Shown here: piece by piece, positions 36,152 to 54,918 of the stretch | How positions within the stretch are numbered: the first letter of the stretch is position 1 | Layout: each line of letters begins with the position of its first letter | Source: Salinigranum halophilum | GTDB lineage: Archaea > Halobacteriota > Halobacteria > Halobacteriales > Haloferacaceae | NCBI RefSeq assembly: GCF_007004735.1 | Contig: NZ_ML660182.1 | Span: 490,130 to 554,129 of the forward strand | Length of the DNA: 64,000 bases | Direction of reading: 5' to 3' | The notes under the pieces: model-generated | Seen by the model: the letters and a program-made list of their open reading frames with translations, nothing else | Told to the model about the DNA's origin: nothing | The model's database searches: none | Made by a program: the position numbers and the translations under genes

Positions 36152-36961
36152 TCAACGTGCGTTTCGGTAGATCCGAAGGCGCTTCTCGACCGGCTCGAAC
36201 CACGACCGGCAGTCGGCGGGGACGGTCTCCGTCATCCCGATGGTGAGGTAGCCGTCGGGCCGGAGGCCGGAGCCGAGCGTCTCGAACACGGCGCGTTTGG
36301 CGTCCGAATCGACGTAGATGAACAGGTTCCGACACAGGATGAGGTCGAACTCGTCGGGCGGGGACTGCCTGATGAGGTCGTGCCGACGGAAGTCGACCAT
36401 CCGCCGCACCGCCCGCGAGACGCGGTACGAATCCCCGTCTCGGTCGATGTACCGCTCGTAATCGCCGATGGGTGCGAGTTGCTCCTCCAGGTCGTTCGTC
36501 TCGGAGGCGTGGTACTCGCCGCGGTCGGCCTTCCGGAGGATCTCGCGCTTGATGTCCGTTCCGACGATGCGCACCCGGTCTTCGCGAACCTGGGGGTCGT
36601 CGTGTGCGAGCATCGCTAGCGAGTACGCCTCGCGGCCGTCCGAACAGGCCGCGCTCCACACCGTCGTGCGGCCCGAGGCCGTGAGGTCGCGAAGCACCGG
36701 CCGGAGCGCCTCCCACACGTCGGGGTTGCGAAAAAAGGAGGTGACGTTGACGCTCAGCGTGTCGAGCAGCGCCTGCTTCTCGTCGTCGTCGGATTCGAGC
36801 AGGCGCTGGTACGTGCGGTACTCCTCGGTGTCGTTCCGGCGCATCCGTGCCGAGATGCGTCGGTCGAGGTACGCGTCGTTGTACATCGAGGTGGCGAAGC
36901 CCATCGACTCTTCGATGTACGCGAGGAGGCGGTCGAAGCCGCGGCCCCTGGCGGTGGCCAT
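36152..36961 (-). CDS. cheR: chemoreceptor methyltransferase CheR
   Basis: This 269-residue SAM-dependent methyltransferase has an N-terminal helical CheR domain (about 1-75) and a catalytic domain containing VTSFFRNPDVWE, the SAM loop WSAACSDGREAYSLAM and DLILCRNLFIY. It methylates Glu residues of chemoreceptors. The start overlaps the cheA stop by one base. Confidence 0.93.
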   Translation of the reverse strand: MATARGRGFDRLLAYIEESMGFATSMYNDAYLDRRISARMRRNDTEEYRTYQRLLESDDDEKQALLDTLSVNVTSFFRNPDVWEALRPVLRDLTASGRTTVWSAACSDGREAYSLAMLAHDDPQVREDRVRIVGTDIKREILRKADRGEYHASETNDLEEQLAPIGDYERYIDRDGDSYRVSRAVRRMVDFRRHDLIRQSPPDEFDLILCRNLFIYVDSDAKRAVFETLGSGLRPDGYLTIGMTETVPADCRSWFEPVEKRLRIYRNAR

Positions 36962-39156
36962 CAGTCTGCCCTCCCACCGTCGGCGGCCAGTTCGGTGTAC
37001 GTCCGCGAGGTACCACCCGTGTCGGGGCCGTCGAGCGTCCCGATGTCGAGGATGGGGATGACGTTCCCGTCGCCGATGACGGCCGTGCCGGAGAGCCCCT
37101 CCGAGTTCGAGAGCGGCCCCTGCAGCGGGGTCACGACGACCTCCTCCTGCCGGGTGACGCCGTCACACCACAGCGCGACCTGTCGGTCCTGCGGACGGAT
37201 GCGGACGACCATGCCCGCCTCCGGCCGCTCCGCTCGTATGCCGAGGGCATCGCGTAGGCGGATGAGCGGGTACACCCGGTCGTCGTGGACGACCACCTCG
37301 TCGCCGTTGATGGTGTCGACGCGGGTCTGTCGAGCCACCTCGTCGATGTACTTGATGGGGACGCCGAACTGTCGGTCGCCGACCAGCACGAACAGCACCT
37401 TGATGATGGCCACCGAGACGGGGAGTCGGATCTTGAACGTCGTGCCGTCGCCGAGCGCGGAGTCGACCGACACCGAACCGTCGAGCGCCTCGACGGTCGT
37501 CTTCACGACGTCCATCCCGACACCCCGTCCCGAGACGTCGGTGATCTGTTCGTTCGTCGAGAAACCGGGGTGGAAGATGTAGTCGAACACCTCCTCGTCG
37601 GGGAGCGCCGAGATGGCCTCGGCGGACGTGACGCCTTTCGAGACGGCCTTCTCGCGGATGCGGTCGACGTCGAGGCCGCCGCCGTCGTCGGACACCTCGA
37701 TGACGACGGTGTCGTGTTCGCGGCGAGCCGACAGGGTGACGACGCCCTGTTCGGGCTTTTCGGCTTCGACCCGCTCTTCGGGCGGTTCGATGCCGTGGTC
37801 GACGGCGTTCCGGAGGACGTGCATCAGCGGGTCGGATATCTCGTCGAGGATGGTTCGGTCGAGCTCGATATCCGCCCCTTCGACGCGGAAGTCGACGCGC
37901 TTGTCCTGTCCGCGCGCGAGGTCGCGCACGAGCCGCGGGAACTTGTCGAACACTTTCTTCAGCGGGATGAGCCGCATGTCCATCACCGTGTTCTGGAGGT
38001 TCGAAGAGATCTTGTCCAGTTCGTCGAGCGTGTCGACGCCGTTCGTCTGTTCCTCGCCGATGGCCTGTCGGAGCTTGATACGGGAGGTGACGAGCTGTTC
38101 GACCAGTTCGTGCAGTTCGTCGAGTTGGTCGACGTCCACGCGGACGGACTTCACCTCCGCGATGCGACGCTCCTGCCCGGCGTCCGTCTCCTCCGACGCT
38201 TCGGCGTCCCCGCCCGCCCCGCCGTCGGCACCGGTCGCCGTGTCGGCCACGTCAGTCGGTTCGTCCCCGCCGTCCCCATCACCGTCGCCGAGTGACCCGC
38301 CGGCTCGGGTGATGGCCGTCGAGACGTCTGTGACGACACAGCCGGAGACGGCCCACAGGTCGTCGAACGTCTCTTCGACCGCCTCGCCGTCGGCGGCGTC
38401 CGCGACGAACAGTTCGACACGGTCGTCGAACGCGCCCTCTCTGACCGCCTCGAGCGAGGGACTCGCGCCGACGACCGCGACGTCGTCGGGGATGCCGTCG
38501 AGGAAGATTCCCGCGTCGACGCTCTTCATCTCGCCCGTCGTGAGCGTGACGTCGAGGTGGTAGAGGCTGTCGTACCCCGCGAGTTCCTCGGCTGGGATGG
38601 TCTCTCTGGCCGTATCGATGTGTTCGGCCCGCTCGGCCGGGACGTCGTCGTCGACCAAGTCCTCCATGCCACCGACCTCCTCGATGTCGTCGACAGCGTC
38701 GGGTGGGGCCGCCTCGTCCACCTCGGTCCCGTCGCTCCCGTCGTCCACGCCGAGTGTCGTCTCCCCGTCGTCACGACCGTCGCCTTCGGCCGCCGCCCGG
38801 AGCGCCGTGACTGTCGCCTCGGGGTCGATGCTCGTCTCGCCGTTCTTCTCGATGTCGTGGAGGATGTCGACGATGAGGTCGACGCCGTCGAAGACGAGGT
38901 CCATCCGCTCGGGGGTGACGTCGAGGCCGCCCTGCCTGACCTCGTCGAGGAGGTCCTCGACGGCGTGGGCGACGGTCGCCGCCGCGTCGAACCCCATCGC
39001 GCCGAAGTTCCCCTTCAGCGTGTGGGCACGCCGGAAGATGTCGTCGATGGCCTCGTCGTCCTCGGGGTTCGACTCCAGCGTGAGCAACGAGTTGTTGAGT
39101 TGCGTGATGCTCTCTTCGCTTTCAGTGATAAACGCCTGGTAGAGTTCTTCGTCCAT
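36961..39156 (-). CDS. cheA: chemotaxis histidine kinase CheA
   Basis: This 731-residue protein has the full CheA plan: an Hpt (P1) domain with phosphorylated H45 in FRRAHTLKGNFGAMGF, an acidic linker and P2-like region (about 125-300), and a P3 dimerisation helix pair (about 335-400). The P4 ATPase follows with N-box LRNAVDHGIEPPEER, DDGGGLD and GRGVGMDVVK, then a C-terminal CheW-like P5 domain (about 580-715). It phosphorylates CheY and CheB under receptor control. Confidence 0.95.
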   Translation of the reverse strand: MDEELYQAFITESEESITQLNNSLLTLESNPEDDEAIDDIFRRAHTLKGNFGAMGFDAAATVAHAVEDLLDEVRQGGLDVTPERMDLVFDGVDLIVDILHDIEKNGETSIDPEATVTALRAAAEGDGRDDGETTLGVDDGSDGTEVDEAAPPDAVDDIEEVGGMEDLVDDDVPAERAEHIDTARETIPAEELAGYDSLYHLDVTLTTGEMKSVDAGIFLDGIPDDVAVVGASPSLEAVREGAFDDRVELFVADAADGEAVEETFDDLWAVSGCVVTDVSTAITRAGGSLGDGDGDGGDEPTDVADTATGADGGAGGDAEASEETDAGQERRIAEVKSVRVDVDQLDELHELVEQLVTSRIKLRQAIGEEQTNGVDTLDELDKISSNLQNTVMDMRLIPLKKVFDKFPRLVRDLARGQDKRVDFRVEGADIELDRTILDEISDPLMHVLRNAVDHGIEPPEERVEAEKPEQGVVTLSARREHDTVVIEVSDDGGGLDVDRIREKAVSKGVTSAEAISALPDEEVFDYIFHPGFSTNEQITDVSGRGVGMDVVKTTVEALDGSVSVDSALGDGTTFKIRLPVSVAIIKVLFVLVGDRQFGVPIKYIDEVARQTRVDTINGDEVVVHDDRVYPLIRLRDALGIRAERPEAGMVVRIRPQDRQVALWCDGVTRQEEVVVTPLQGPLSNSEGLSGTAVIGDGNVIPILDIGTLDGPDTGGTSRTYTELAADGGRAD

Positions 39157-39157
39157 G

Positions 39158-40243
39158 TTAGCTCCTCAGTGTGTGCAAGATCCCCTCCGCGACACCGTGG
39201 GCGGGGAGGACCTCGTCGGTGTGTCCCGCCTCGATTGCTCGCTTCGGCATCCCGAAAATCGCCGACGTCCGCTCGTCCTGTGCGATGGTCGCCCCGCCCG
39301 CGCGCTTGACCGCCCCCATGCCGTCGACGCCGTCGCGTCCCATCCCGGTGAGCAGCACCGTCGTGAGCGGGCCGCGGACCACGTCGGCGGCCGACGACAT
39401 GGTGTGGTCGATGGCCGGCTTGACGCCGTGGAGGCGGTCGCCGCCGCGGAGTCGAAGCCGGAGTCTGTCGGCTCTGTCGTCGTCGACGAACAGGTGCGAA
39501 CCGCCCGGTGCGACCCGGGCCTGGCCTGGTCCGATTCGCTCGCCATCCTGCGCTTCGCGGACCTCGTAGCCGCAGCGACCGTCGAGGCGCTTCGCGAACC
39601 GACCGGTGAACCCCTCCGGCATGTGCTGGACGACGAGGATGCGGAGCCCCGCCTCCCGTGGGAGGCCGGTGAGCACCTCCTCGACCACGTTCGGCCCGCC
39701 CGTCGACGCACCGATGATGACCGTCCCGCCGTCGGGGAGCGACCCGGGGGCGACAGCACCGCCCGCCGGGCCCGCTGCCGACGGTGTCCGTGTCACTTGC
39801 GTCGGCGCGGCCGTCCGCTCTCGGGCCGTGAGGTCGACGGCAGCGGCCGACCGGACCTTGTCGACCAGTTCGCGCTTGACCCGCGGCATCTCCGAGGTGA
39901 CCTCGCCACCCGGCTTCGTGACGAAGTCGACGGCCCCACGGTCGAGCGCCTCGAACGTCACGTCGGCGTTCTCCTCGGCGTGCGCCGACAGCATCAGTAC
40001 GGGCGTCGGGCGGGTCGACATGATCTCCTCGACGGCCTCGATTCCGTTCTTTCGCGGCATCTCGATGTCCATCGTCACCACGTCCGGGTCGTGTTCGGCG
40101 ACGACATCGACGGCCGCGACACCGTCTTCGGCGTCGGCGACGACGTCGATTCCGCCGTCTTCGAGGAGTTTCGTGATGAGCGTCCGCATGAACCGCGAGT
40201 CGTCGACGACCACCGCCCGCGTCGTCCCCGCAGCCACGCTCAT
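39158..40243 (-). CDS. cheB: protein-glutamate methylesterase CheB
   Basis: This 361-residue protein has an N-terminal receiver domain with phosphoacceptor D59 (VVTMDIEMP) and a C-terminal methylesterase/amidase domain. The triad is S180 (IIGASTGGP), H207 (VVQHMPEGF) and D304 (LTGMGRDGVDG). It removes methyl groups added by CheR. ATG 40243 starts the receiver fold; the upstream open frame is not protein-like. It ends 1 nt before cheA and heads the operon. Confidence 0.94.
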   Translation of the reverse strand: MSVAAGTTRAVVVDDSRFMRTLITKLLEDGGIDVVADAEDGVAAVDVVAEHDPDVVTMDIEMPRKNGIEAVEEIMSTRPTPVLMLSAHAEENADVTFEALDRGAVDFVTKPGGEVTSEMPRVKRELVDKVRSAAAVDLTARERTAAPTQVTRTPSAAGPAGGAVAPGSLPDGGTVIIGASTGGPNVVEEVLTGLPREAGLRILVVQHMPEGFTGRFAKRLDGRCGYEVREAQDGERIGPGQARVAPGGSHLFVDDDRADRLRLRLRGGDRLHGVKPAIDHTMSSAADVVRGPLTTVLLTGMGRDGVDGMGAVKRAGGATIAQDERTSAIFGMPKRAIEAGHTDEVLPAHGVAEGILHTLRS

Positions 40244-40345
40244 CGACACCTCTCGACAGCGCGTCCAGTGTGCCGGCCGCTCCCATGCGGGAGCGCTCGG
40301 CGTGACGGTCCGATTCGCATCTCTGTCCGTGCTTCGACGATACGC

Positions 40346-40353
40346 TACATAAA
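40346..40353 (-). promoter_or_regulatory. TATA-like element upstream of cheB
   Basis: TTTATGTA on the minus strand lies about 105 nt upstream of cheB, implying a leader of roughly 75 nt if used. Confidence 0.3.
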
Positions 40354-40459
40354 CACACCTCGGCGACAATCAGTTGTGATAACGCTAGGGGTAGGTTTAG
40401 GTAGCGACTCACCGACCGCTGCGATAACAGGCGCGCCGACGCGTCAGACAGCCAGACCC

Positions 40460-40939
40460 ATGCACTCCCAGAAGACCCCGACGAACCCCCAGCCCGCGGC
40501 GCACGACCACGAGGAGGCAGAGAGCGCGACGGAGATTCAGGTGCTTGAGTTCAAACTCGGTTCCGAGACGTACTGCGTCGACATCGACTACGTCTCCGAG
40601 ATCGTCGACAAGGGCTCGCTCACCACGGTCCCGAACGCGCCCCACTACGTCGACGGCGTGATGGACCTCCGCGGGCGGACCACCTCCATCGTCAACCCGA
40701 AGAGCCTGCTGAACATCCGCGAGGAGAGCGAGGCCAAGCGGATTATCATCTTCGACTCCGGTGGCTTCGAAGACGACGCCGCCATCGGCTGGGTCGTCGA
40801 CGAGGTGTACCAGGTCGTCCGTGTGTCGATGAACGACGTGGAGAAGCCGCCGCTCGACAACGACCCGTCCATCGAGGGAATCATCAAACGTGACGACGAA
40901 CTCGTCATCTGGATCTCACCCGTCGCGGCGCTGGGGTGA
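40460..40939 (+). CDS. cheW: chemotaxis coupling protein CheW
   Basis: This 159-residue protein is a single CheW SH3-like double-barrel domain preceded by an acidic tail of about 25 residues. Features include LEFKLGSETYCVDIDYVSEI, the conserved DLRGRTTSIVNPKSLL and VVDEVYQVVRV. It couples chemoreceptors to CheA. It is transcribed divergently from cheB. ATG 40460 is the first start compatible with the domain. Confidence 0.93.
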   Translation: MHSQKTPTNPQPAAHDHEEAESATEIQVLEFKLGSETYCVDIDYVSEIVDKGSLTTVPNAPHYVDGVMDLRGRTTSIVNPKSLLNIREESEAKRIIIFDSGGFEDDAAIGWVVDEVYQVVRVSMNDVEKPPLDNDPSIEGIIKRDDELVIWISPVAALG

Positions 40940-46536: not shown

Positions 46537-46893
46537 CTACTCGCCGTCGTCGTCTCCGTCCACACCATCGTCCTCGTCGTCGACGTGTTGCCCCCAGAAC
46601 CCCGCGTGTTTCTCGACGGTGACGTCACCGAGGACTCGGGTCTGACAGGCGAGTCGGAGGCCGGACGCCGGGTCGTGCGGCGGGACCCGCAGTCGCAGTC
46701 GCTCCCGCCGCGTGCTGTCGGAGACGGGGCCCGAAACCGAAACCGCACACGTCCCACAGGAGCCGAGGCCGCGGCAGTTCAGCGACCCCGACGCGCCGTT
46801 GTGTGGCGTCTCGTCCCCGGCGAGGAGGACGTCTCTGAGGACGGCGCCGTGGGCACAGTCGAACTCGCGGGCGCGGAACCGGACAGTCGGCAT
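46537..46893 (-). CDS. 2Fe-2S ferredoxin
   Basis: This 118-residue plant-type ferredoxin-fold protein has the cluster ligands in LNCRGLGSCGTCAV (C40, C46, C49) and the fourth Cys in LACQTRV (near 83). The acidic C-terminal tail rich in Asp is typical of halophilic ferredoxins. It is an electron carrier with partners unknown. It is shorter than the major haloarchaeal ferredoxin, which carries an inserted acidic domain near its N-terminus. It is convergent with the zinc-ribbon gene. Confidence 0.82.
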   Translation of the reverse strand: MPTVRFRAREFDCAHGAVLRDVLLAGDETPHNGASGSLNCRGLGSCGTCAVSVSGPVSDSTRRERLRLRVPPHDPASGLRLACQTRVLGDVTVEKHAGFWGQHVDDEDDGVDGDDDGE

Positions 46894-46976: not shown

Positions 46977-47624
46977 ATGCACACCACTCGACGCGCCCTC
47001 CTCACCGGGGCCGGCGCGACGCTCGCTGCGACGGCCGGTTGTCTCGGCTCCGTGACCGGGTCCGGCGGCAGTAGCGACACCGACTGTGACCTCTCCGCAC
47101 GCCCGACGGTCGAGTCGCTTCCGACCCCCGCACTCGGCCCGGAGGACGCCAGCGTGACGGTCATGGCCTTCGAGGACTTCTCCTGTCCGCACTGTCAGAC
47201 GTACCACCTCGAGGAGTTCCCCGCTATCGAGCGCGACCTCGTCGGCGGGGACGTCCGCTACGAGCACCACGACCTCCCCATCCCGGTGAGCCAGCAGTGG
47301 TCGTGGGCGGCCGCGGGTGCCGCCCGGGCGGTTCAGGACTCGACTGACGACGAGACGTTCTTCGCGTACGCGAAGTCGCTCTTCGAGAACCAGGGGTCGT
47401 ACTCGATGTCGCTCGTCGAGTCGCTGGCGAACGACGTCGGTGCGGACGGGTGCGACGTCCGCGCCGCCGCCGCGAACGACCGGTATCGTCCCGTCTTGGA
47501 GGCCGACCGCCAGCGCGGTCTCGACATTGGCGTCCAGGGGACGCCGACGGTGTTCGTGAACGGCCGGGAGGTGAACCCGACGTTCGATGCCGTCCGCTCG
47601 GCCGTCGAGGGCGCGCAGTCCTGA
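46977..47624 (+). CDS. DsbA/DsbG-like thiol oxidoreductase lipoprotein
   Basis: This 215-residue exported protein has a Tat-like TTRRALLTG start, a lipobox TAGC ending at C22, and a thioredoxin-fold domain (from about 55). The active site is C70-P-H-C73, and the cis-Pro loop is GTPTVFV near 186. CPHC is the DsbA-type oxidising motif, so it probably forms or shuffles disulfides outside the membrane. It stands at the head of a string of exported redox genes including TlpA-like and CcdA proteins. Confidence 0.88.
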   Translation: MHTTRRALLTGAGATLAATAGCLGSVTGSGGSSDTDCDLSARPTVESLPTPALGPEDASVTVMAFEDFSCPHCQTYHLEEFPAIERDLVGGDVRYEHHDLPIPVSQQWSWAAAGAARAVQDSTDDETFFAYAKSLFENQGSYSMSLVESLANDVGADGCDVRAAAANDRYRPVLEADRQRGLDIGVQGTPTVFVNGREVNPTFDAVRSAVEGAQS

Positions 47625-47674
47625 GCCGGCCCCGAACACGGCCGGTGGCGTGCGGAGCGCACGACAACGCGTGG

Positions 47675-47682
47675 CATTTATG
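47675..47682 (+). promoter_or_regulatory. TATA-like box before TlpA-like gene
   Basis: CATTTATG is centred 27 nt upstream of the ATG at 47706 (mini-ORF), not of the TlpA start at 47738. Confidence 0.45.
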
Positions 47683-47705
47683 CCCAGCGGCCGAACCCCG
47701 GGGCG

Positions 47706-47741
47706 ATGACTCACATCGCCGATAGCGGGGTGACGCGATGA
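47706..47741 (+). CDS. 11-codon upstream ORF overlapping the TlpA-like gene
   Basis: ATG 47706 encodes MTHIADSGVTR and terminates in the TGA at 47739-47741, sharing ATGA with the TlpA-like start at 47738. Spacing to the TATA box suggests a leaderless start on this mini-ORF. Confidence 0.35.
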   Translation: MTHIADSGVTR

Positions 47742-48250
47742 ACCGACGACAGGTCCTCGCCGCGCTCGGCGGCCTCACGCTGACCGGCGGTGCAGGCTAC
47801 GTCGCGGTCACCGGTCTCGGGGGCGAACGCGATGCAGTCACCGTCGACACCCTCGATGCCCCCGGGTCGGCGGCCGGGAGCCAGCGGATTCCGGCTCCGG
47901 GGCGGCCGACACTCGTCGACCTCTTCGCGACGTGGTGTGTCCCCTGTGAGGCGCAGATGCGGAGCCTCGTCCCCGTCTACGAATCGTTCGGCGACCGCGT
48001 GGCGTTCGTCTCCGTGACGAACGAGCGGTTCGGCGGCGGACTCGACGCCGAGGACATCCGGCAGTGGTGGGTCGACCACGACGGCCGCTGGACCGTCGGT
48101 CACGATCCCGAGAGTCGACTCATGAGCGAACTCGGGGCGGGCGGCCTCCCGTTTCTCGCCCTCGCCGACGCCTCGGGCGAGGTGGTCTGGACGCACCGAG
48201 GCGTAGCGAGCGAGTCCCAGCTCCGCGAGGCTCTCGGGGCCGTCGTCTGA
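47738..48250 (+). CDS. TlpA/ResA-like thioredoxin, membrane-anchored or exported
   Basis: This 170-residue protein has a short twin-Arg-like start (NRRQVLAALGG), a hydrophobic signal/anchor (about 7-27) and a thioredoxin fold with active site C67-V-P-C70 in FATWCVPCEAQM. WCVPC is typical of reducing TlpA/ResA proteins that keep exported thiols reduced. It is coupled to ccdA (1-nt overlap), which would supply electrons. Confidence 0.88.
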   Translation: MNRRQVLAALGGLTLTGGAGYVAVTGLGGERDAVTVDTLDAPGSAAGSQRIPAPGRPTLVDLFATWCVPCEAQMRSLVPVYESFGDRVAFVSVTNERFGGGLDAEDIRQWWVDHDGRWTVGHDPESRLMSELGAGGLPFLALADASGEVVWTHRGVASESQLREALGAVV

Positions 48251-48927
48251 TGGCTGCCGCGCTCCAGGTGGATGCGGCCTTCACGGGCACCCTCGCATTC
48301 GCCCTCAGCGCGGGGGTGGCGACGTTCTTCGCCCCGTGTGCGTACCCGCTCTTGCCGGGGTACGTCGGCTACTATCTGAGTCGGGAAGAAGCCGACCTCG
48401 GGGGGGCCGTCGTCCGCGGTGGCGCTGCGACGGCCGGTGCGCTGGCAGTCCTCGCTGTCGTGGGTGGGGCGCTCGTCTCGCTCGGGACGCGCGTCGTGTC
48501 GAACCTCGCCTTCCTCGAGCCGGCGGTCGGCGTCGGGCTCGCCCTCTTCGGGCTCGCTGTCCTCCTCGGACGAGCACCCAGCGTCCACTTGCTCCTTCCG
48601 GAACACCGGTCGTCCATTCTGGGCTTCGTGTTCTTCGGCGGCGTCTACGCCGTCGCCGCCGCCGGCTGCGTGCTTCCCATCGTCTTCGGCGTCGTGACGC
48701 AGGCGCTCACGCTCCCGACGGAACAGGCGGTCACCGTCGTCGGCGTCTACGCCGCGTCGGTGTCGCTCCCACTCCTGGGCGTGACGCTCCTCTCTGCCGT
48801 CGGCAGCGACGCCCTCAGCGGCGTCTCCCGACACGTTGGCACCATCCAGCAGGTCGCTGCCGTCGTCATGGTCGTCGCCGGCCTCGCACAGATCGGCCTG
48901 TCGCTGTCGTACCTCGGCTGGGTCTGA
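48250..48927 (+). CDS. ccdA: CcdA-type membrane electron carrier
   Basis: This 225-residue membrane protein has six predicted helices and the CcdA/DsbD-beta cysteines: C30 in FFAPCAYPLLPG and C140 in AAAGCVLPIVFG. It passes electrons from a cytosolic thioredoxin to exported thioredoxins such as the TlpA-like partner just upstream. The start overlaps the tlpA-like stop. Confidence 0.9.
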   Translation: MAAALQVDAAFTGTLAFALSAGVATFFAPCAYPLLPGYVGYYLSREEADLGGAVVRGGAATAGALAVLAVVGGALVSLGTRVVSNLAFLEPAVGVGLALFGLAVLLGRAPSVHLLLPEHRSSILGFVFFGGVYAVAAAGCVLPIVFGVVTQALTLPTEQAVTVVGVYAASVSLPLLGVTLLSAVGSDALSGVSRHVGTIQQVAAVVMVVAGLAQIGLSLSYLGWV

Positions 48928-48978
48928 GCCGCCGGCGGGAACCGACCCCGTTTTACCGACGCTGTCCCTTCTCGAGCT

Positions 48979-50496
48979 ATGCACCGCAGTCGGCTGACGA
49001 CGGCCGCGACCACACGGCTCGTCGTCGCGCTGCTCGCCGTCGCCACCGCACTGCTCGCGCTTTCGGCCCCCGTCGCCGCACACGGCCGGGCGGCGACGGC
49101 CGACCCGTCACCGTTCGCGGCAGTCCCCGCCTGGGCCGGCGTCGCCGCCGGACTCGCCCTCGCCGCGGTCGGGGTCCTCCTCGTCGCCCGCACCGTCTGC
49201 GAGTCGGGCGTCCCGCGCAGTGTCGGCGCGGTCGCGGTCGCCCTCCTCGCGGGGGGCGTGCTCGTCGCCGGCGTCGGCACGACCGGGGTCGGACTTCCCG
49301 GCGGGGCAACGACCGAGACGCCGCTGTGGACGAGCGACACCGACCGGGAAATCGGTGGTAACCACCACGCCCCGGCCGTTACCGAGGGGCGTGTGTACGC
49401 CCCGCTGAGTGGCCCCGGAACAGACCAGGGGTGTGAGCTGGTCTCTCTCCACAGCTCCGACGGCGGCGTGGTGTGGCGCGCGCCCGTCGACGAGTGTACC
49501 ATCCACGCCGTCGCCGACCCCGCCGTCGCGGACGCCGACGGCGACGGGACGGACGAGGTCCTCGTCGCCACCACCGCCGACGACCTCCGCGTCTACAGCC
49601 AGGAGGGTGACCTCCTCCGACGAAGCGCGCTCGCCGACTACGGCTACACGCGCCCGGTCGTCGCCGACCTCGGCGGAACCGCCGCGCCCGAGACGGTCGT
49701 CGTCGACGTCCGTGGGACCGTCACCGCGTTCGACACCGCGGGCACGCCGAGGTGGGAGCACGCGCTGGACGACTACGTCTGGGCGCGTCCCGTCGTCGCC
49801 GACGTCGACGCCGACGGCGACACCGAGGTGTTCGTCGCCCAGCGCGACGGGACGCTCACGCTCCTCGCGCCCTCGGTGGGTGGCGTCGACGGCGCAACGG
49901 GCGACGCGGAGTCCGTCGAGTGGGCCGTCGGCGTCGGCGACGACCCCGCCGTCTCGTGGGTCGCATCGGGGCAGGCCGACGACGACCCGGCGCTCGAACT
50001 GTGGGTGGCGACGGTCGACGGGGGCGTCTACGCCGTCGACGGCGCGACCGGCGAGGTGGAGTGGTCCCGCGACGTCGGGTCACTCGCCTCCGTCGGCGGG
50101 TTCGGTGACGGCGACGGCGACGGGGCCAGCGAGGTGTACGTCGCCGACAACAGCGGGACCGTCCGCGCGCTCGACGCGGCGAGCGGCGAGGTGGAGTGGA
50201 CGACGCGCGTCACCGACGAGGCGGTGCAGATGATGCCGCCGCCCTCGCTCGGTGACACCGACGGCGACGACGCTCCCGACCTCGTCGTCCCCGCCCACGA
50301 CGGCAGTGTCACGAAACTCGACCCCGCCGACGGCACCGTCCAGGCGCGATACGAACGGCCGGCGACGCCCGCGGAGACGGACGCCGGTATCGACCGCCTC
50401 TTCGGGCGAGCCACGCTCGGAGACGTCGACGGCGACGGTGACGACGACGCCGTCGTCGTCTACGCCGACGGGACCGTCGTCGCCCTGGACTTCTGA
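48979..50496 (+). CDS. membrane-anchored PQQ/FG-GAP-like beta-propeller protein
   Basis: This 505-residue protein has a signal or first helix (about 14-34), two further helices (about 47-68 and 80-102), and then an exported domain of repeated beta-propeller blades. Blades are marked by Asp-rich Ca-binding-like loops (VADADGDGTDEVLVAT, VADVDADGDTEVFVAQ, LGDVDGDGDDDAVVVY) and Ala-x-Asp-Gly-x-Gly-like PQQ-type turns (VYAVDGATGEVEW, VRALDAASGEVEW). No catalytic residues recognised. It is likely a binding or scaffold module in the redox/metal cluster. Confidence 0.75.
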   Translation: MHRSRLTTAATTRLVVALLAVATALLALSAPVAAHGRAATADPSPFAAVPAWAGVAAGLALAAVGVLLVARTVCESGVPRSVGAVAVALLAGGVLVAGVGTTGVGLPGGATTETPLWTSDTDREIGGNHHAPAVTEGRVYAPLSGPGTDQGCELVSLHSSDGGVVWRAPVDECTIHAVADPAVADADGDGTDEVLVATTADDLRVYSQEGDLLRRSALADYGYTRPVVADLGGTAAPETVVVDVRGTVTAFDTAGTPRWEHALDDYVWARPVVADVDADGDTEVFVAQRDGTLTLLAPSVGGVDGATGDAESVEWAVGVGDDPAVSWVASGQADDDPALELWVATVDGGVYAVDGATGEVEWSRDVGSLASVGGFGDGDGDGASEVYVADNSGTVRALDAASGEVEWTTRVTDEAVQMMPPPSLGDTDGDDAPDLVVPAHDGSVTKLDPADGTVQARYERPATPAETDAGIDRLFGRATLGDVDGDGDDDAVVVYADGTVVALDF

Positions 50497-50572
50497 CGTC
50501 TGGCTCGCTCGGCGCTGTCGAGAGGCGCGATGGGTCGACGTCTCCACTCGAGAGGGTGGAACGGGCGCTCGG

Positions 50573-51844
50573 TCACGCGCCGGTCGGCGTCGGCAACGCC
50601 CGGAGCGGCCGTGGCGGGACGAGGTAGTTGCCCCGGCGGATGACGAAGATGTACTCGAGGATGCCGTTGTTGACGCGCTGGCGGATGGTGGGAACGTCGG
50701 TCAGGTCGGCTCCGTTCATCGCCTCTCTCACCGCCTCGAACGACGCGATATCCCGCTGGAGGGTGGGGAAATGCAGGCTCGCCTCGCCGTCGTCCGTCGA
50801 CTCGACGTGCCGCCTGAGCAGCAGCGGTCGCCCGTCGGAGTCGCGGTTGGCGCGGGCGGCCTTCTGGGCGTGGCCGACCCGTCCGTACTCGCGCGCCTGC
50901 TCGCGGATGGTCGAGACGACCTCCTCGTCGACGCCGCTGAAGTCGCCAAGGTTCTCTCCCGTCCCCTCGACGAGGCCCCGCTCGGCGTGCAGGGGGGAGA
51001 ACATCTCCATCACCTGTTCTTCGAAGTCCTGTTCCTCGTACCAGTCGTCGAGTCGCTGTCGGATAGTCGAGAGGTGTTTGGTCGTCCCGCCGGCGAACGG
51101 TCCGTCCTCGATGCTGACGGCGGCCTCGGTCGCCTGATTCCGCCGGAAGCCGGCCTTGAAGCCCATGAAAAGCGGCGATTCCGCCGGGACGGGACCCCCA
51201 CGTGGGATGCCCGAGACCTCGCCCTGTCGCTCGGCGGGCATCCCCGCACCCATGAAGCCCGTGCGCCGGCCGACCACCGAGAGGGCGTCCGAGAGGGGCG
51301 TCTCGACGTCGAGACCGTTCATGGCGTCCCGTTCGCCCACCAGCGCCTGTTCCGCCTCGAGCAACGCGTCGGGCCGGTCCGAAGCGAGGTGCAAAAGGGC
51401 GTCCTGGGTGTCGAGTTCGGGCGTCTCGAACGAGGAGAGTGGGCGGGGGTCGGGCAGTGGATACCGGAGTTCGGCGTCGTAGCGCGCGAAGTACGCCGGC
51501 GTGTACGCCAGCGAGGAGAGGACGCCCTCGTGACTCCACTCGTAGGCGCGGTCGAGCGTCCCCATCGCCGACTCGACGACGGCGCGGTCGGCCCGGGTCG
51601 GCGCTCCGTCACGGCCGAGCGAGAGCGAGAGGAACACGTGGTGTCGCGGGAGTTCGTGGTTCCCGGCGTCGTCGGTCGCGAGGAAGTCGTTCCAGCGGTG
51701 CTGTCCCGTGGGGAGGTCGTCGGAGGGGCTCCCGCGGGGCACCGGTTCGTCGGCCTCGGAGAGACAGGCCGAGAGCGCCGTCGCCCCGCCCGTCGCCACC
51801 GCGAGCTTCAGTGCGTCCCGCCGGGACAGGTCGCGGTCGAACAC
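50573..51844 (-). CDS. DyP-peroxidase-like Tat lipoprotein (DUF7405 type) lacking the GXXDG Asp
   Basis: This protein of about 423 residues has Tat signal SRRDALKLAVATGG and lipobox LSAC at C27. The rest resembles dye-decolorizing peroxidases: YTPAYFARYD and SSFETPELDTQDAL in the first ferredoxin-like half, GPFAGGT and a C-terminal DGRPLLLRRHV, LHFPTLQRDI and NYLVPP. H325 in GHAQKAARA aligns with the proximal heme His. The GXXDG motif reads GFKAG (228-232), so the catalytic Asp is Ala231. GTG 51844 is chosen because a TTATTT element lies about 25 nt upstream. It is divergent from the Sco-like gene. Confidence 0.68.
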   Translation of the reverse strand: MFDRDLSRRDALKLAVATGGATALSACLSEADEPVPRGSPSDDLPTGQHRWNDFLATDDAGNHELPRHHVFLSLSLGRDGAPTRADRAVVESAMGTLDRAYEWSHEGVLSSLAYTPAYFARYDAELRYPLPDPRPLSSFETPELDTQDALLHLASDRPDALLEAEQALVGERDAMNGLDVETPLSDALSVVGRRTGFMGAGMPAERQGEVSGIPRGGPVPAESPLFMGFKAGFRRNQATEAAVSIEDGPFAGGTTKHLSTIRQRLDDWYEEQDFEEQVMEMFSPLHAERGLVEGTGENLGDFSGVDEEVVSTIREQAREYGRVGHAQKAARANRDSDGRPLLLRRHVESTDDGEASLHFPTLQRDIASFEAVREAMNGADLTDVPTIRQRVNNGILEYIFVIRRGNYLVPPRPLRALPTPTGA

Positions 51845-51942
51845 GACCAGCGTACGGACCCGAAAAATAAACCGTTGTCGTCGATTCCGGAGCCGCGGGA
51901 AGGGGACAAGCGTCTTTACCTCCACGAACCGAACCACGAGCG

Positions 51943-52620
51943 ATGAACAGACGCAGGTTCCTCGCCAGCGGCGCGGCGCTCGGTGTCGGTGCGACTGCTG
52001 GCTGTCTGGGAACGCTTGGCATCGGCGACCAGAACCAGAACGTCGTCCTCGGCGCGCCCGACCGGACCGCCGACGTCTCGAGCGAGGACCTCCCGTACCC
52101 CGCGTGGGGCCAGCGTGTCCCCGACGTGACCCTCCCCGCGCCGGTGTCGGGCGAGACCGTCTCGTTCCGCGACGTCGACCGACCCGTCCTGGCGACGTTC
52201 ATCTTCACCAACTGCATGACGGCCTGTCCGGTGTTGCTCTCCACGCTCCGGGAGGTCCAGGTCCACTCCGTCCAGGAGGGGTACGCCGGCGACGTCGCCT
52301 TCCACCCCGTCACGTTCGACCCCGCCCGGGACGACGAGGCGGCGCTGCGAGCGGAACGAGACCAGTTCAACGTCGACACCGACGCCGGAAACTGGGCGTT
52401 CCTCCGCCCCGAGGACGAGGCGCGAGCGAAGGCGGTCGTCACCGACCAGTTCGGCGTCACCTTCCAGAAGCAGGAGGTCGAAGAGGGGCCGTACATGTTC
52501 ATCCACCTCTCGCTCATCCTCCTCGTGAACGCCGACGGCTACGTCGAGCGCGCCTACCGCGGCGAGGAGACGGACGAGGGACGCATCATCGACGACCTCC
52601 GGACGGTGCGAAACGCATGA
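51943..52620 (+). CDS. SCO1/SenC-family lipoprotein
   Basis: This 225-residue protein has a Tat-like NRRRFLASG start, lipobox TAGC at C21 and a thioredoxin-fold Sco domain with CxxxC as C91-M-T-A-C95 (FTNCMTACP) and the metal-binding H188 in YMFIHLS. Sco proteins bind copper for cytochrome oxidase assembly or act as thiol reductases. No oxidase gene is in the window, so a role in the neighbouring metal/thiol module is equally possible. A TTTACC TATA-like site lies about 25-30 nt before the start. Confidence 0.87.
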   Translation: MNRRRFLASGAALGVGATAGCLGTLGIGDQNQNVVLGAPDRTADVSSEDLPYPAWGQRVPDVTLPAPVSGETVSFRDVDRPVLATFIFTNCMTACPVLLSTLREVQVHSVQEGYAGDVAFHPVTFDPARDDEAALRAERDQFNVDTDAGNWAFLRPEDEARAKAVVTDQFGVTFQKQEVEEGPYMFIHLSLILLVNADGYVERAYRGEETDEGRIIDDLRTVRNA

Positions 52621-53681
52621 CCCGGCCGACTCGTCGGCGCTTCCTCGCCGGCGTCGGTGCCGCGGGCCTGGCCGGTCTCGCTGGCTGTGCGGGCTTCTCG
52701 ACGACGACGTACAGCGCCGAACCGCCGCTGGTCGAGGACCGGCCGAACGCCGTGTACATCCCCTCGCACGTCGAGGGGATGGAGATGGTGGGGATGGGCA
52801 TGGCCGGCGACGCGCGGGTGGCGGTCACGTACAGCTACCCGCACCGGTTCTGGACCGTCGAGCAGGACGGAACCGAGTTCGTGACTCAGCAGGTCGACGT
52901 CCGAGACGACGACGCGGCCCACCTGATGGCGACGGTGTGGGACCCCGAGACGGGCGTCGTCCTCCCGAACACGGGGCTGTCGATGGAGATTCGGAACGAC
53001 GACGGCCTCGTGAGCCAGGAGGTCGTCTACCCGATGCTCTCCCAGCAGATGGGCTTTCACTACGGGGCGAACTTCCCGCTGGACGGCAACGACGTCTACG
53101 ACGTCACCGTCAGCGTCGGTGCCCCCAACGTGAAGCGGTTCGGGTCGCTCGGAAACCGCTTCACCGAGGCGGCGACGGCGACCGTCTCGTTCGACTACCG
53201 GGAGGGAGCCCGCAACGAGATCGACTACACCGTGTTCGAGGCGGGCCGGCGGGGCCAGCGCGACGCCGTCGCGCCGATGTCGATGGATATGATGCCCGTC
53301 GGACAGGTACCCGACTCCGTCTCGGGGACCGCTCTCGGCGAGGCGACCGTCGGCGACCTCGTCCTCCGCGGCTACGTCGTCACGAACGAGCGGTTCGCCG
53401 ACGACTCGTACCTCGTCGTCACCGCCGCGACGCCGTACAACGACCTCGTCGTCCCCGGGATGGCGCTCTCCGCTCGCGTGCCCGGCGACGGCCGGGCGGC
53501 GTTCGCCGGACGGCTCGACCCGGCGCTCGACCCCGACCTCGGCTTCCACTACGGCGCTCCCGTCTCCGGGGGTGCCGTCCAGGACACCGAACTCACCGTC
53601 GAGATTCCCCCGCAAGTCGCCCGGCACGAGGGCTACGAGACGGCCTTCCTCGAGACGGGCACCGTCACGTTCTCCGCGTAG
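52617..53681 (+). CDS. Tpd/P19-like exported iron-binding lipoprotein, duplicated domain
   Basis: This 354-residue protein has Tat signal TRRRFLAGVG and lipobox LAGC at C24. Two related beta domains follow, each ending in the same FHYG motif (QMGFHYGANF at 145-153 and LGFHYGAP at 308-315). Met-rich segments EGMEMVGMGM (53-62) and APMSMDMMPVG (219-229) precede each. Met/His metal sites with a (F/P)HYG turn are a mark of the Tpd/P19 periplasmic iron-binding family. It overlaps the Sco-like stop by 4 nt. It probably binds and presents Fe or Cu outside the cell. Confidence 0.72.
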   Translation: MTRPTRRRFLAGVGAAGLAGLAGCAGFSTTTYSAEPPLVEDRPNAVYIPSHVEGMEMVGMGMAGDARVAVTYSYPHRFWTVEQDGTEFVTQQVDVRDDDAAHLMATVWDPETGVVLPNTGLSMEIRNDDGLVSQEVVYPMLSQQMGFHYGANFPLDGNDVYDVTVSVGAPNVKRFGSLGNRFTEAATATVSFDYREGARNEIDYTVFEAGRRGQRDAVAPMSMDMMPVGQVPDSVSGTALGEATVGDLVLRGYVVTNERFADDSYLVVTAATPYNDLVVPGMALSARVPGDGRAAFAGRLDPALDPDLGFHYGAPVSGGAVQDTELTVEIPPQVARHEGYETAFLETGTVTFSA

Positions 53682-53724
53682 GGAGCAACCCTTTCGTTCG
53701 TCCGGCGACTTCCCCCTCTCACGG

Positions 53725-54918
53725 ATGGGTACCGAACGCCGCGACAGGGTCGTCCTCGCGCTCGTCGTCTGGAGCGTCCTCGTCTCGCAGGTGCTCCTCT
53801 ACCCGGGGCTCGCGGACCTCGTCCGCGCGCTCGGCGGGCGCGGACTCGACGCCGCCACGGCCTTCCTCGTCGCGGAGGTGGCGGCGTTCGTCACCTTCGC
53901 CTCCGTCTGGGGTGCGCTCTCGGACGCGACGGGTCGGCGACTGCGGTGGGTCGTCGGCGGCGCACTCGGAGGTGCCCTCTCGTACCTCCTCCTCGCGGCC
54001 CTGCCGACGCTCGGCGTCGGCTTCGGCGTCGCGCTCGTCATTCGCGTCGTGGGCGGCGCGTTCACCATCGGTGCCTTCTCGCTGGCCGTGACGACGCTCG
54101 CCGACCTGGGCGGCGGGAACGGTCGGAACATGGGCGTGGCGGGTCTCGCCATCGGCCTCGGGGCCGCCCTCGGTGCCGTCGTCGGCGGCCGGCTCTCAAT
54201 CCTCGACCCCCTCGCCCCGCTCGTGGCGGCGGCGGGACTGCTGTTCGTCGTCGCCACCCTCTCGCTGTCGGTGACCGACCGTGCCCCCTCCGGGCGGAAC
54301 CTGGGCGTCGGTGCCATCGTCCGCGGGCTCCGCTCCCGGCCGGCACTGTCTGTCCCCTACGCGTTCGGCTTCGTCGACCGTCTCACCGCCGGCTTCTTCG
54401 CGCTCGTCGGCGTCTTCTACTTCCGCACACAGTTCGGCCTCGACGCCGCCGGCGCGGGCGTCGTGCTCGCGCTCTTTTTCCTCCCCTTCGCCCTCTTGCA
54501 GTACCCGCTCGGGGTCGTCTCCGACCGGGTTGGGCGCTTCTACCCGGTGGTCGCCGGCTCCGCCGCCTACGGCGTCGCCATCATCGGCGTGGGGCTCGCG
54601 CCCTCGCTCGTCTCGGCGGCGAGCATGATGGTCGTGGTCGGCGTCTTCGGCGCGCTCGTCGCCCCGGCGACCATGGCGCTGGCGACGGACCTCGTCCCGG
54701 AGGACGAACGCGGCGTCGCGCTCGGCGGCTTCAACGTCGCCGGCTCGCTGGGGTTTCTCACCGGCTTCCTCGTCGGCGGGCTCTCCGCGGATTCGCTCGG
54801 CTTCCTCCCCGCGTTCCTCATCGTCGGCGGGTTGGAGGTCGCCATCGCGGTGGTCGCGCTTCGCGCCGTCCGGGAGCTGAAGCCGTTCGAGCGCGCGGTG
54901 GGCACGGCGGACGACTGA
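53725..54918 (+). CDS. major facilitator superfamily transporter
   Basis: This 397-residue carrier has twelve helices, the MFS loop 2-3 motif reduced to GALSDATGRRLRW (about 54-66), and the matching second-half loop GVVSDRVGRFYPV. It resembles multidrug or metabolite permeases, with no substrate-specific motif. Located 43 nt after the Tpd-like gene, it may be part of the same transcript and could carry the metal or a chelate; that is inference. A T5 run follows the stop. Confidence 0.82.
   Translation: MGTERRDRVVLALVVWSVLVSQVLLYPGLADLVRALGGRGLDAATAFLVAEVAAFVTFASVWGALSDATGRRLRWVVGGALGGALSYLLLAALPTLGVGFGVALVIRVVGGAFTIGAFSLAVTTLADLGGGNGRNMGVAGLAIGLGAALGAVVGGRLSILDPLAPLVAAAGLLFVVATLSLSVTDRAPSGRNLGVGAIVRGLRSRPALSVPYAFGFVDRLTAGFFALVGVFYFRTQFGLDAAGAGVVLALFFLPFALLQYPLGVVSDRVGRFYPVVAGSAAYGVAIIGVGLAPSLVSAASMMVVVGVFGALVAPATMALATDLVPEDERGVALGGFNVAGSLGFLTGFLVGGLSADSLGFLPAFLIVGGLEVAIAVVALRAVRELKPFERAVGTADD

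Follow-up and report, generated by a model that had tools for sequence, protein, structure and literature searches.

A haloarchaeal locus of thiol-redox, DyP-fold and P19-like proteins as a probable copper-handling and cuproenzyme maturation module

The closest described systems to the locus reported here are the P19/FtrA-FTR1 systems (FetMP, HftA and the Campylobacter p19 locus), whose bacterial operons also carry periplasmic thioredoxins (PMC6083913), the EfeUOB system with its DyP-fold protein EfeB, the Sco/TlpA/CcdA route for maturation of the CuA sites of cytochrome oxidase and NosZ and, at the level of a single protein, the DyP-type peroxidases (YfeX, DyPB, DtpB). Elements of each are found in a gene cluster at 46977-54918 of a 64,000-nucleotide stretch of the Salinigranum halophilum genome (contig NZ_ML660182.1, positions 490,130 to 554,129; hereafter the window). 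We read this cluster as one copy of a haloarchaeal extracytoplasmic module for copper handling and for the maturation of cuproenzymes, chiefly heme-copper oxidases and also NosZ-type enzymes, and assign this reading a probability of about 0.62. Copper is preferred over iron because the promoter motif of orthologous loci also precedes known copper genes. Respiratory electron transfer in haloarchaea depends on halocyanins, which are copper proteins, and to our knowledge the supply of copper to the oxidases of these archaea has been little described.

A preliminary description of the window had recognised eight neighbouring genes, all of which were present and correctly placed when open reading frames and sequence were checked, with family calls borne out by Pfam, profile and fold matches. 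The features of the locus are as follows.

46537..46893, minus strand: gene for a 2Fe-2S ferredoxin-like protein, divergent from dsbA (Pfam Fer2, E 1e-6)
46977..47624, plus strand: DsbA-like thioredoxin-fold lipoprotein (Thioredoxin_4 PF13462, E 2e-28; CPHC; twin-arginine translocation (Tat)-type signal)
47738..48250, plus strand: TlpA/ResA-like thiol-disulfide protein (Redoxin PF08534, E 6e-11; WCVPC; ResA/DsbE-like)
48250..48927, plus strand: CcdA-type membrane thiol conduit (two conserved membrane Cys; profile match to 5vkv)
48979..50496, plus strand: membrane-anchored PQQ/FG-GAP beta-propeller (PF13360, E 1e-15)
50573..51844, minus strand: DUF7405, a Tat-exported lipoprotein with a DyP-peroxidase fold (PF24152, E 1e-158; AlphaFold; Foldseek)
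51845..51942, no strand: divergent promoter region between the DUF7405 gene and sco, without the motif TTCGA-N7-ACC-ASAAYS
51943..52620, plus strand: SCO1/SenC copper-chaperone-like lipoprotein (PF02630, E 1e-15; CxxxC, as CMTAC)
52617..53681, plus strand: Tat lipoprotein with what look like two P19-like domains in tandem (PF10634 Iron_transport and PF24041 DUF7350; AlphaFold; Foldseek)
53725..54918, plus strand: MFS transporter, a putative carrier (MFS_1 PF07690, E 6e-31)

The ccdA start at 48250 overlaps the tlpA stop codon (TGATG), the MFS gene starts at 53725, and the DUF7405 gene most likely begins at 51844, within an open frame that extends to 51937. A single-sequence Pfam search with the CcdA protein gave no match, and a profile built from six members (alignment A5) matched the solved CcdA 5vkv (E 1.4e-8). 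The SCO CxxxC, the TlpA WCxxC and a CcdA with two membrane cysteines are thus all encoded together in the window, the same three protein types, side by side and with the same Cys motifs, as in the Sco/TlpA/CcdA route; the cluster differs from that route in adding the DyP-fold protein, the tandem P19-like protein, the beta-propeller and the MFS protein. An operon of H. mediterranei, which may not be orthologous to the cluster in the window, combines genes for a cupredoxin, SCO, a thioredoxin and CcdA (cytochrome c biogenesis); its expression increases by 3-7.6 log2 during denitrification, and the authors of that study connected it with copper and with the maturation of NosZ (PMC11218638).

The evidence that carries the copper assignment is a promoter motif, TTCGA-N7-ACC-ASAAYS with a T-rich stretch after it, which emerged when the upstream regions of orthologous loci were compared and which sits some 30 nt upstream of the start codon. 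The exact motif matched 59 times across 60 genomes; the reversed pattern matched 2 times and an N6 spacing 11 times, a background level that served as the negative control. Order-wide, it occurs in 157 of 243 Halobacteriales genomes and 62 of 78 genera, the reversed pattern appearing only a handful of times. The collected loci contain 151 strong sites; a Tat-signal gene starts downstream of 135 of them, in 98 cases at 29-31 nt, a spacing that might be expected if the promoter is leaderless and the motif directly adjoins the TATA region. Several exact matches inside unrelated genes were treated as chance. The motif differs from the published haloarchaeal denitrification motif CGAAYATDKTYG. One variant, TTCGAAAGACAAACCAGAATC, is present as an identical 21-mer in genomes of different families (G051, G186, G221, G168, G194 and G126; G-numbers denote genomes, G000 being the source genome with the window on its contig C1, and L-numbers the collected loci) and may represent a mobile element instead of a regulatory site.

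Most motif sites precede DUF7405 and the P19-like gene. Further targets are SCO and DUF7471; NosL in three loci (L172, L162, L262), with a NosD/NosL-domain protein in L172; the heme A synthase COX15-CtaA in two lineages (L261, L283); CopC-CopD (L274); a Copper-bind halocyanin in two loci (L206, L197); and DsbD_2 (L260, L172 and, by position weight matrix (PWM), L211), which in L260 adjoins a copper P-ATPase (TIGR01511 match above the cut-off). SCO orthologues, NosL and CtaA under one motif are a second likeness to the Sco/TlpA/CcdA route. Another P-ATPase, encoded next to DUF7350 in L213, was left out of the copper evidence because its score is better for a Zn/Cd/Pb type than for CopA. In one genus (L278-L281) a membrane protein with a cysteine cluster is encoded divergently from DUF7405, with a motif site facing each way; it starts AH(S/T)GT.HA.TPHW, carries the cluster ATACCCCAPA (also L283:4996-6177 and L284:5567-6688) and is possibly a copper carrier. 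The motif is also found at a 12-transmembrane (12-TM) family (L118, L212 and, by position, G003 and G051), at a HiPIP gene and before genes for rhodanese-domain Tat lipoproteins in genomes of two families (L065:8176-8958, L275:2522-3262). The 12-TM family (alignment A3), a membrane protein of ~450 aa with invariant His in AY..AH and GH..A motifs, occurs in 44 of 60 relatives and has no Pfam, NCBIfam or PDB match; it adjoins DUF7350 and the beta-propeller, elsewhere adjoins cox1/2/3/4 oxidase genes, and was counted for the copper/oxidase reading (examples: L124:12691-14019, L213:8683-10350 and, in the own genome, G000:C1:446404-447738 and C4:171059-172564). No iron-uptake gene was seen among the identified motif targets.

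This list bears directly on the suggestion of the preliminary description that the cluster could be a system for metal acquisition or for heme/iron handling. In a ferrous-iron system of P19/EfeB type, the P19 protein would bind iron, the DyP-like protein would oxidise or handle it, the thioredoxins would reduce, and the MFS protein would import in place of Ftr1. The P19 fold with its PF10634 match, a DyP fold as in EfeB and the thioredoxins of bacterial P19 operons speak for such a system, whereas the many copper genes among the targets, the membership of SCO in a copper protein family and the inconstancy of the MFS gene speak against it. Moreover, FTR1 (PF03239), M75/EfeO and Dyp_perox_N (canonical DyP) were found in none of 30 relatives including the own genome, control genomes being positive; hence neither a bacterial P19-FTR1 nor an EfeUOB system is present. 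The earlier observation that Ftr1 is missing was therefore right, and no copy is encoded elsewhere in the own genome. The cluster shares a P19-fold lipoprotein and neighbouring thioredoxin-fold proteins with the P19/FtrA-FTR1 systems but lacks FTR1 or ABC permease genes, and it shares an exported DyP-fold protein with EfeUOB but lacks EfeU and EfeO.

The P19-like lipoprotein itself departs from its bacterial relatives. Its model (predicted local distance difference test, pLDDT, 92) matches FetP, FtrA and HftA in Foldseek (E 5e-5, prob 1.0) and its profile matches FtrA (E 5e-7), which upholds the earlier Tpd/P19-like assignment. In many genomes, weak matches to the DUF7350 model also fall in the N-terminal half of the protein's reading frame, and on this basis the protein looks like two P19-like domains in tandem, an arrangement that may mimic the P19 dimer and that differs from the single domain of the bacterial proteins. 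Across 41 sequences (alignment A2), M55, H102, M104, M140, M145, H148 and H337 are invariant; four Met and two His of these fall in the first domain and form a putative Met/His-rich site. When aligned against FtrA, M104 occupies the position of the Glu in HLE and is Met in 41/41 sequences; the equivalent FetP residue, E46, appears as a site variant in the titles of PDB entries among the Foldseek matches. The replacement of the metal-site Glu by Met, together with the copper and oxidase-assembly genes to which the motif leads, makes iron acquisition an unlikely function, and that part of the preliminary description is not sustained.

DUF7405 is assigned to the DyP fold by structure: its AlphaFold model (pLDDT 89) matches DyP peroxidases in Foldseek (E 8e-16, prob 1.0, TMt about 0.7), in agreement with the earlier call. 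The assignment rests on structure because a direct profile comparison with E. coli YfeX is weak (prob 1.9%) and was discarded as support. H325, K328, R344 and R345 are invariant among 29 members (alignment A1). The Arg region aligns to deferrochelatase, and H325, on a reading by eye, may correspond to the proximal His. DUF7405 resembles the DyP-type peroxidases in fold and perhaps in a conserved His and Arg at motif-equivalent places, but has about 15% identity to them, forms a separate Pfam family that Dyp_perox_N does not match, and has lost GXXDG. The corresponding place reads GFK[S/A]GF, and the catalytic (distal) Asp is absent in 29/29 aligned members, which by motif reading carry Ser, Ala, Asn, Thr or Val instead; an hhalign alignment with YfeX leaves a shift of about four residues unsettled, and neither register places a conserved Asp at GXXDG. 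We found no literature that names DUF7405. None of the 16 copies of a divergent DUF7405 clade lies near DUF7350, and four loci of that clade (L093, L094, L095, L097) adjoin a molybdopterin/formate-dehydrogenase-like gene or operon with conserved small neighbours.

The DyP fold, with a His and Arg that may be retained, would suit a respiratory or oxidative-stress module, in which DUF7405 would be an extracytoplasmic heme peroxidase protecting respiratory and copper proteins, the P19-like and thiol proteins would repair or buffer metals released by oxidation, and the regulator would respond to redox state or oxygen. An ArsR-like regulator with an HVO_0163-type N-terminal domain stands beside many of the loci, HVO_0163 itself is up under hypochlorite (PMC10294847), and the HiPIP and rhodanese genes are among the motif targets. 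Set against this, HVO_0163 is only the namesake of the family, the DyP catalytic Asp is missing in all 29 aligned members, and the named targets mostly serve as chaperones for copper or in oxidase assembly rather than as stress enzymes; we consider a stress module improbable.

We next consider how constant the neighbourhood is. The closest named relative is Salinigranum salinum. Among 60 relatives, DUF7405 is present in 49 and DUF7350 in 47; Haloferax volcanii carries both. The main DUF7405 clade occurs in 46 genomes, all 46 of which encode DUF7350; a single further genome, 70% complete, has DUF7350 without it. Of 55 main-clade copies, 39 lie <10 kb from a DUF7350 gene (hypergeometric 2.7e-12, phylogeny ignored), and the DUF7405-DUF7350 pair is the most constant core of the module. 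DUF7350 was found in 16/24 genomes of the order and in 0 of about 124 genomes from elsewhere in the phylum. Neighbours were counted within 6 kb of DUF7405 at 80 named loci: the P19-like gene at 52, MFS at 27, DsbA at 26, a regulator at 20, the ferredoxin gene, which belongs to the conserved neighbourhood, at 17, and TlpA and CcdA at 14 each. When the Pfam families of neighbouring gene clusters were counted without preselection, neither an iron nor a copper family dominated, the count yielding two plastocyanin members, a single FecCD and a single P-type ATPase.

The gene order of the cluster, with DsbA, TlpA, CcdA and DUF7405 divergent from SCO-P19-MFS, is common to Salinigranum and most Haloferax; the Haloferax orthologues carry one motif copy facing DUF7405 and one facing sco. 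Halogranum and others have DUF7471 and a winged-helix regulator (PF24266) where SCO stands in the window; PF24266, being a recurrent neighbour whose partner DUF7471 carries the motif, is a candidate for the motif-binding regulator. The neighbourhood is conserved in Salinigranum, Haloferax and Halogranum and in part in Halogeometricum and Halobellus, so that the earlier idea of a conserved extracytoplasmic thiol/metal system stands by synteny, whereas iron or heme-iron acquisition, given the copper and oxidase targets, is not supported. Similarly, an MFS carrier is indeed present where Ftr1 is missing, but the MFS gene is a Haloferacaceae feature and no constant partner, and therefore no simple replacement for Ftr1; its PDB matches are general MFS carriers only, and a copper- or iron-specific reading of the protein was dropped. 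Elsewhere in the window (36961-40939), unrelated to the cluster, a CheA-like kinase gene on the minus strand adjoins one for a CheW-domain protein on the plus strand.

The low counts for the thiol genes raise the question of whether a general disulfide module (DsbA, TlpA, CcdA) lies by chance beside an unrelated DUF7405-SCO-P19-MFS cluster, since many lineages have DUF7405 and DUF7350 without these genes. However, SCO-TlpA-CcdA recurs beside DUF7350 in other lineages and in varied arrangements (L063, L086, L101, L110, L191), which suggests a functional tie and makes a chance collection very unlikely. One of these loci, L101 (G000:C5:616000-635000), is a second module in the own genome, where DUF7405, SCO, the P19-like gene and DUF7471 are divergent from a SCO-TlpA-CcdA set; motif sites stand before DUF7405, before the P19-like gene and before the divergent SCO of that set.

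Several observations weigh against a copper module. The window copy has no motif (no PWM match above 9 in the whole 64 kb), nor do other Salinigranum loci of the same type (type-A); since the promoter of the window lacks the motif, the copper assignment reaches it through its orthologues, its gene content and the second copy L101. SCO is within 6 kb of DUF7405 at only 15/80 loci, and it occurs in 41/60 genomes. The P19-like gene is lacking from some loci of Halogeometricum, Halobellus and Haloferax in which DUF7405 and MFS are kept. In a further difference from the Sco/TlpA/CcdA route, no oxidase gene was found adjoining the window locus. P19 proteins bind iron as well as copper, and the signal of the regulon could be oxygen or respiration rather than copper.

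In the copper-handling scheme that we infer from these data, CcdA would relay reducing equivalents through the membrane, first to TlpA and then to SCO, and DsbA would oxidise thiols. The tandem P19-like lipoprotein would capture copper at the surface through its Met/His site and deliver it, directly or via SCO, to respiratory enzymes for their copper sites. The DyP-fold protein, its near-constant partner, would be a heme protein, most likely tuning the redox state of copper or heme or clearing peroxide during metal loading, and the MFS protein may serve the Haloferacaceae lineage as a transporter of copper or of a ligand.

More tentatively, and with clearly less confidence than we place in the module as a whole, DUF7405 and DUF7350 may constitute an undescribed two-protein surface copper system, found only in Halobacteriales among the genomes searched, in which an Asp-less DyP-fold heme protein and a doubled P19 copper binder would together load heme-copper oxidases and further cuproenzymes, as part of a regulon for copper or respiration that spans the order and has a new promoter motif. 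If this is true, two widespread DUF families would gain a role and a non-canonical DyP protein would be linked to copper handling, while one testable DNA motif would mark a regulon for copper and oxidase assembly across an archaeal order.

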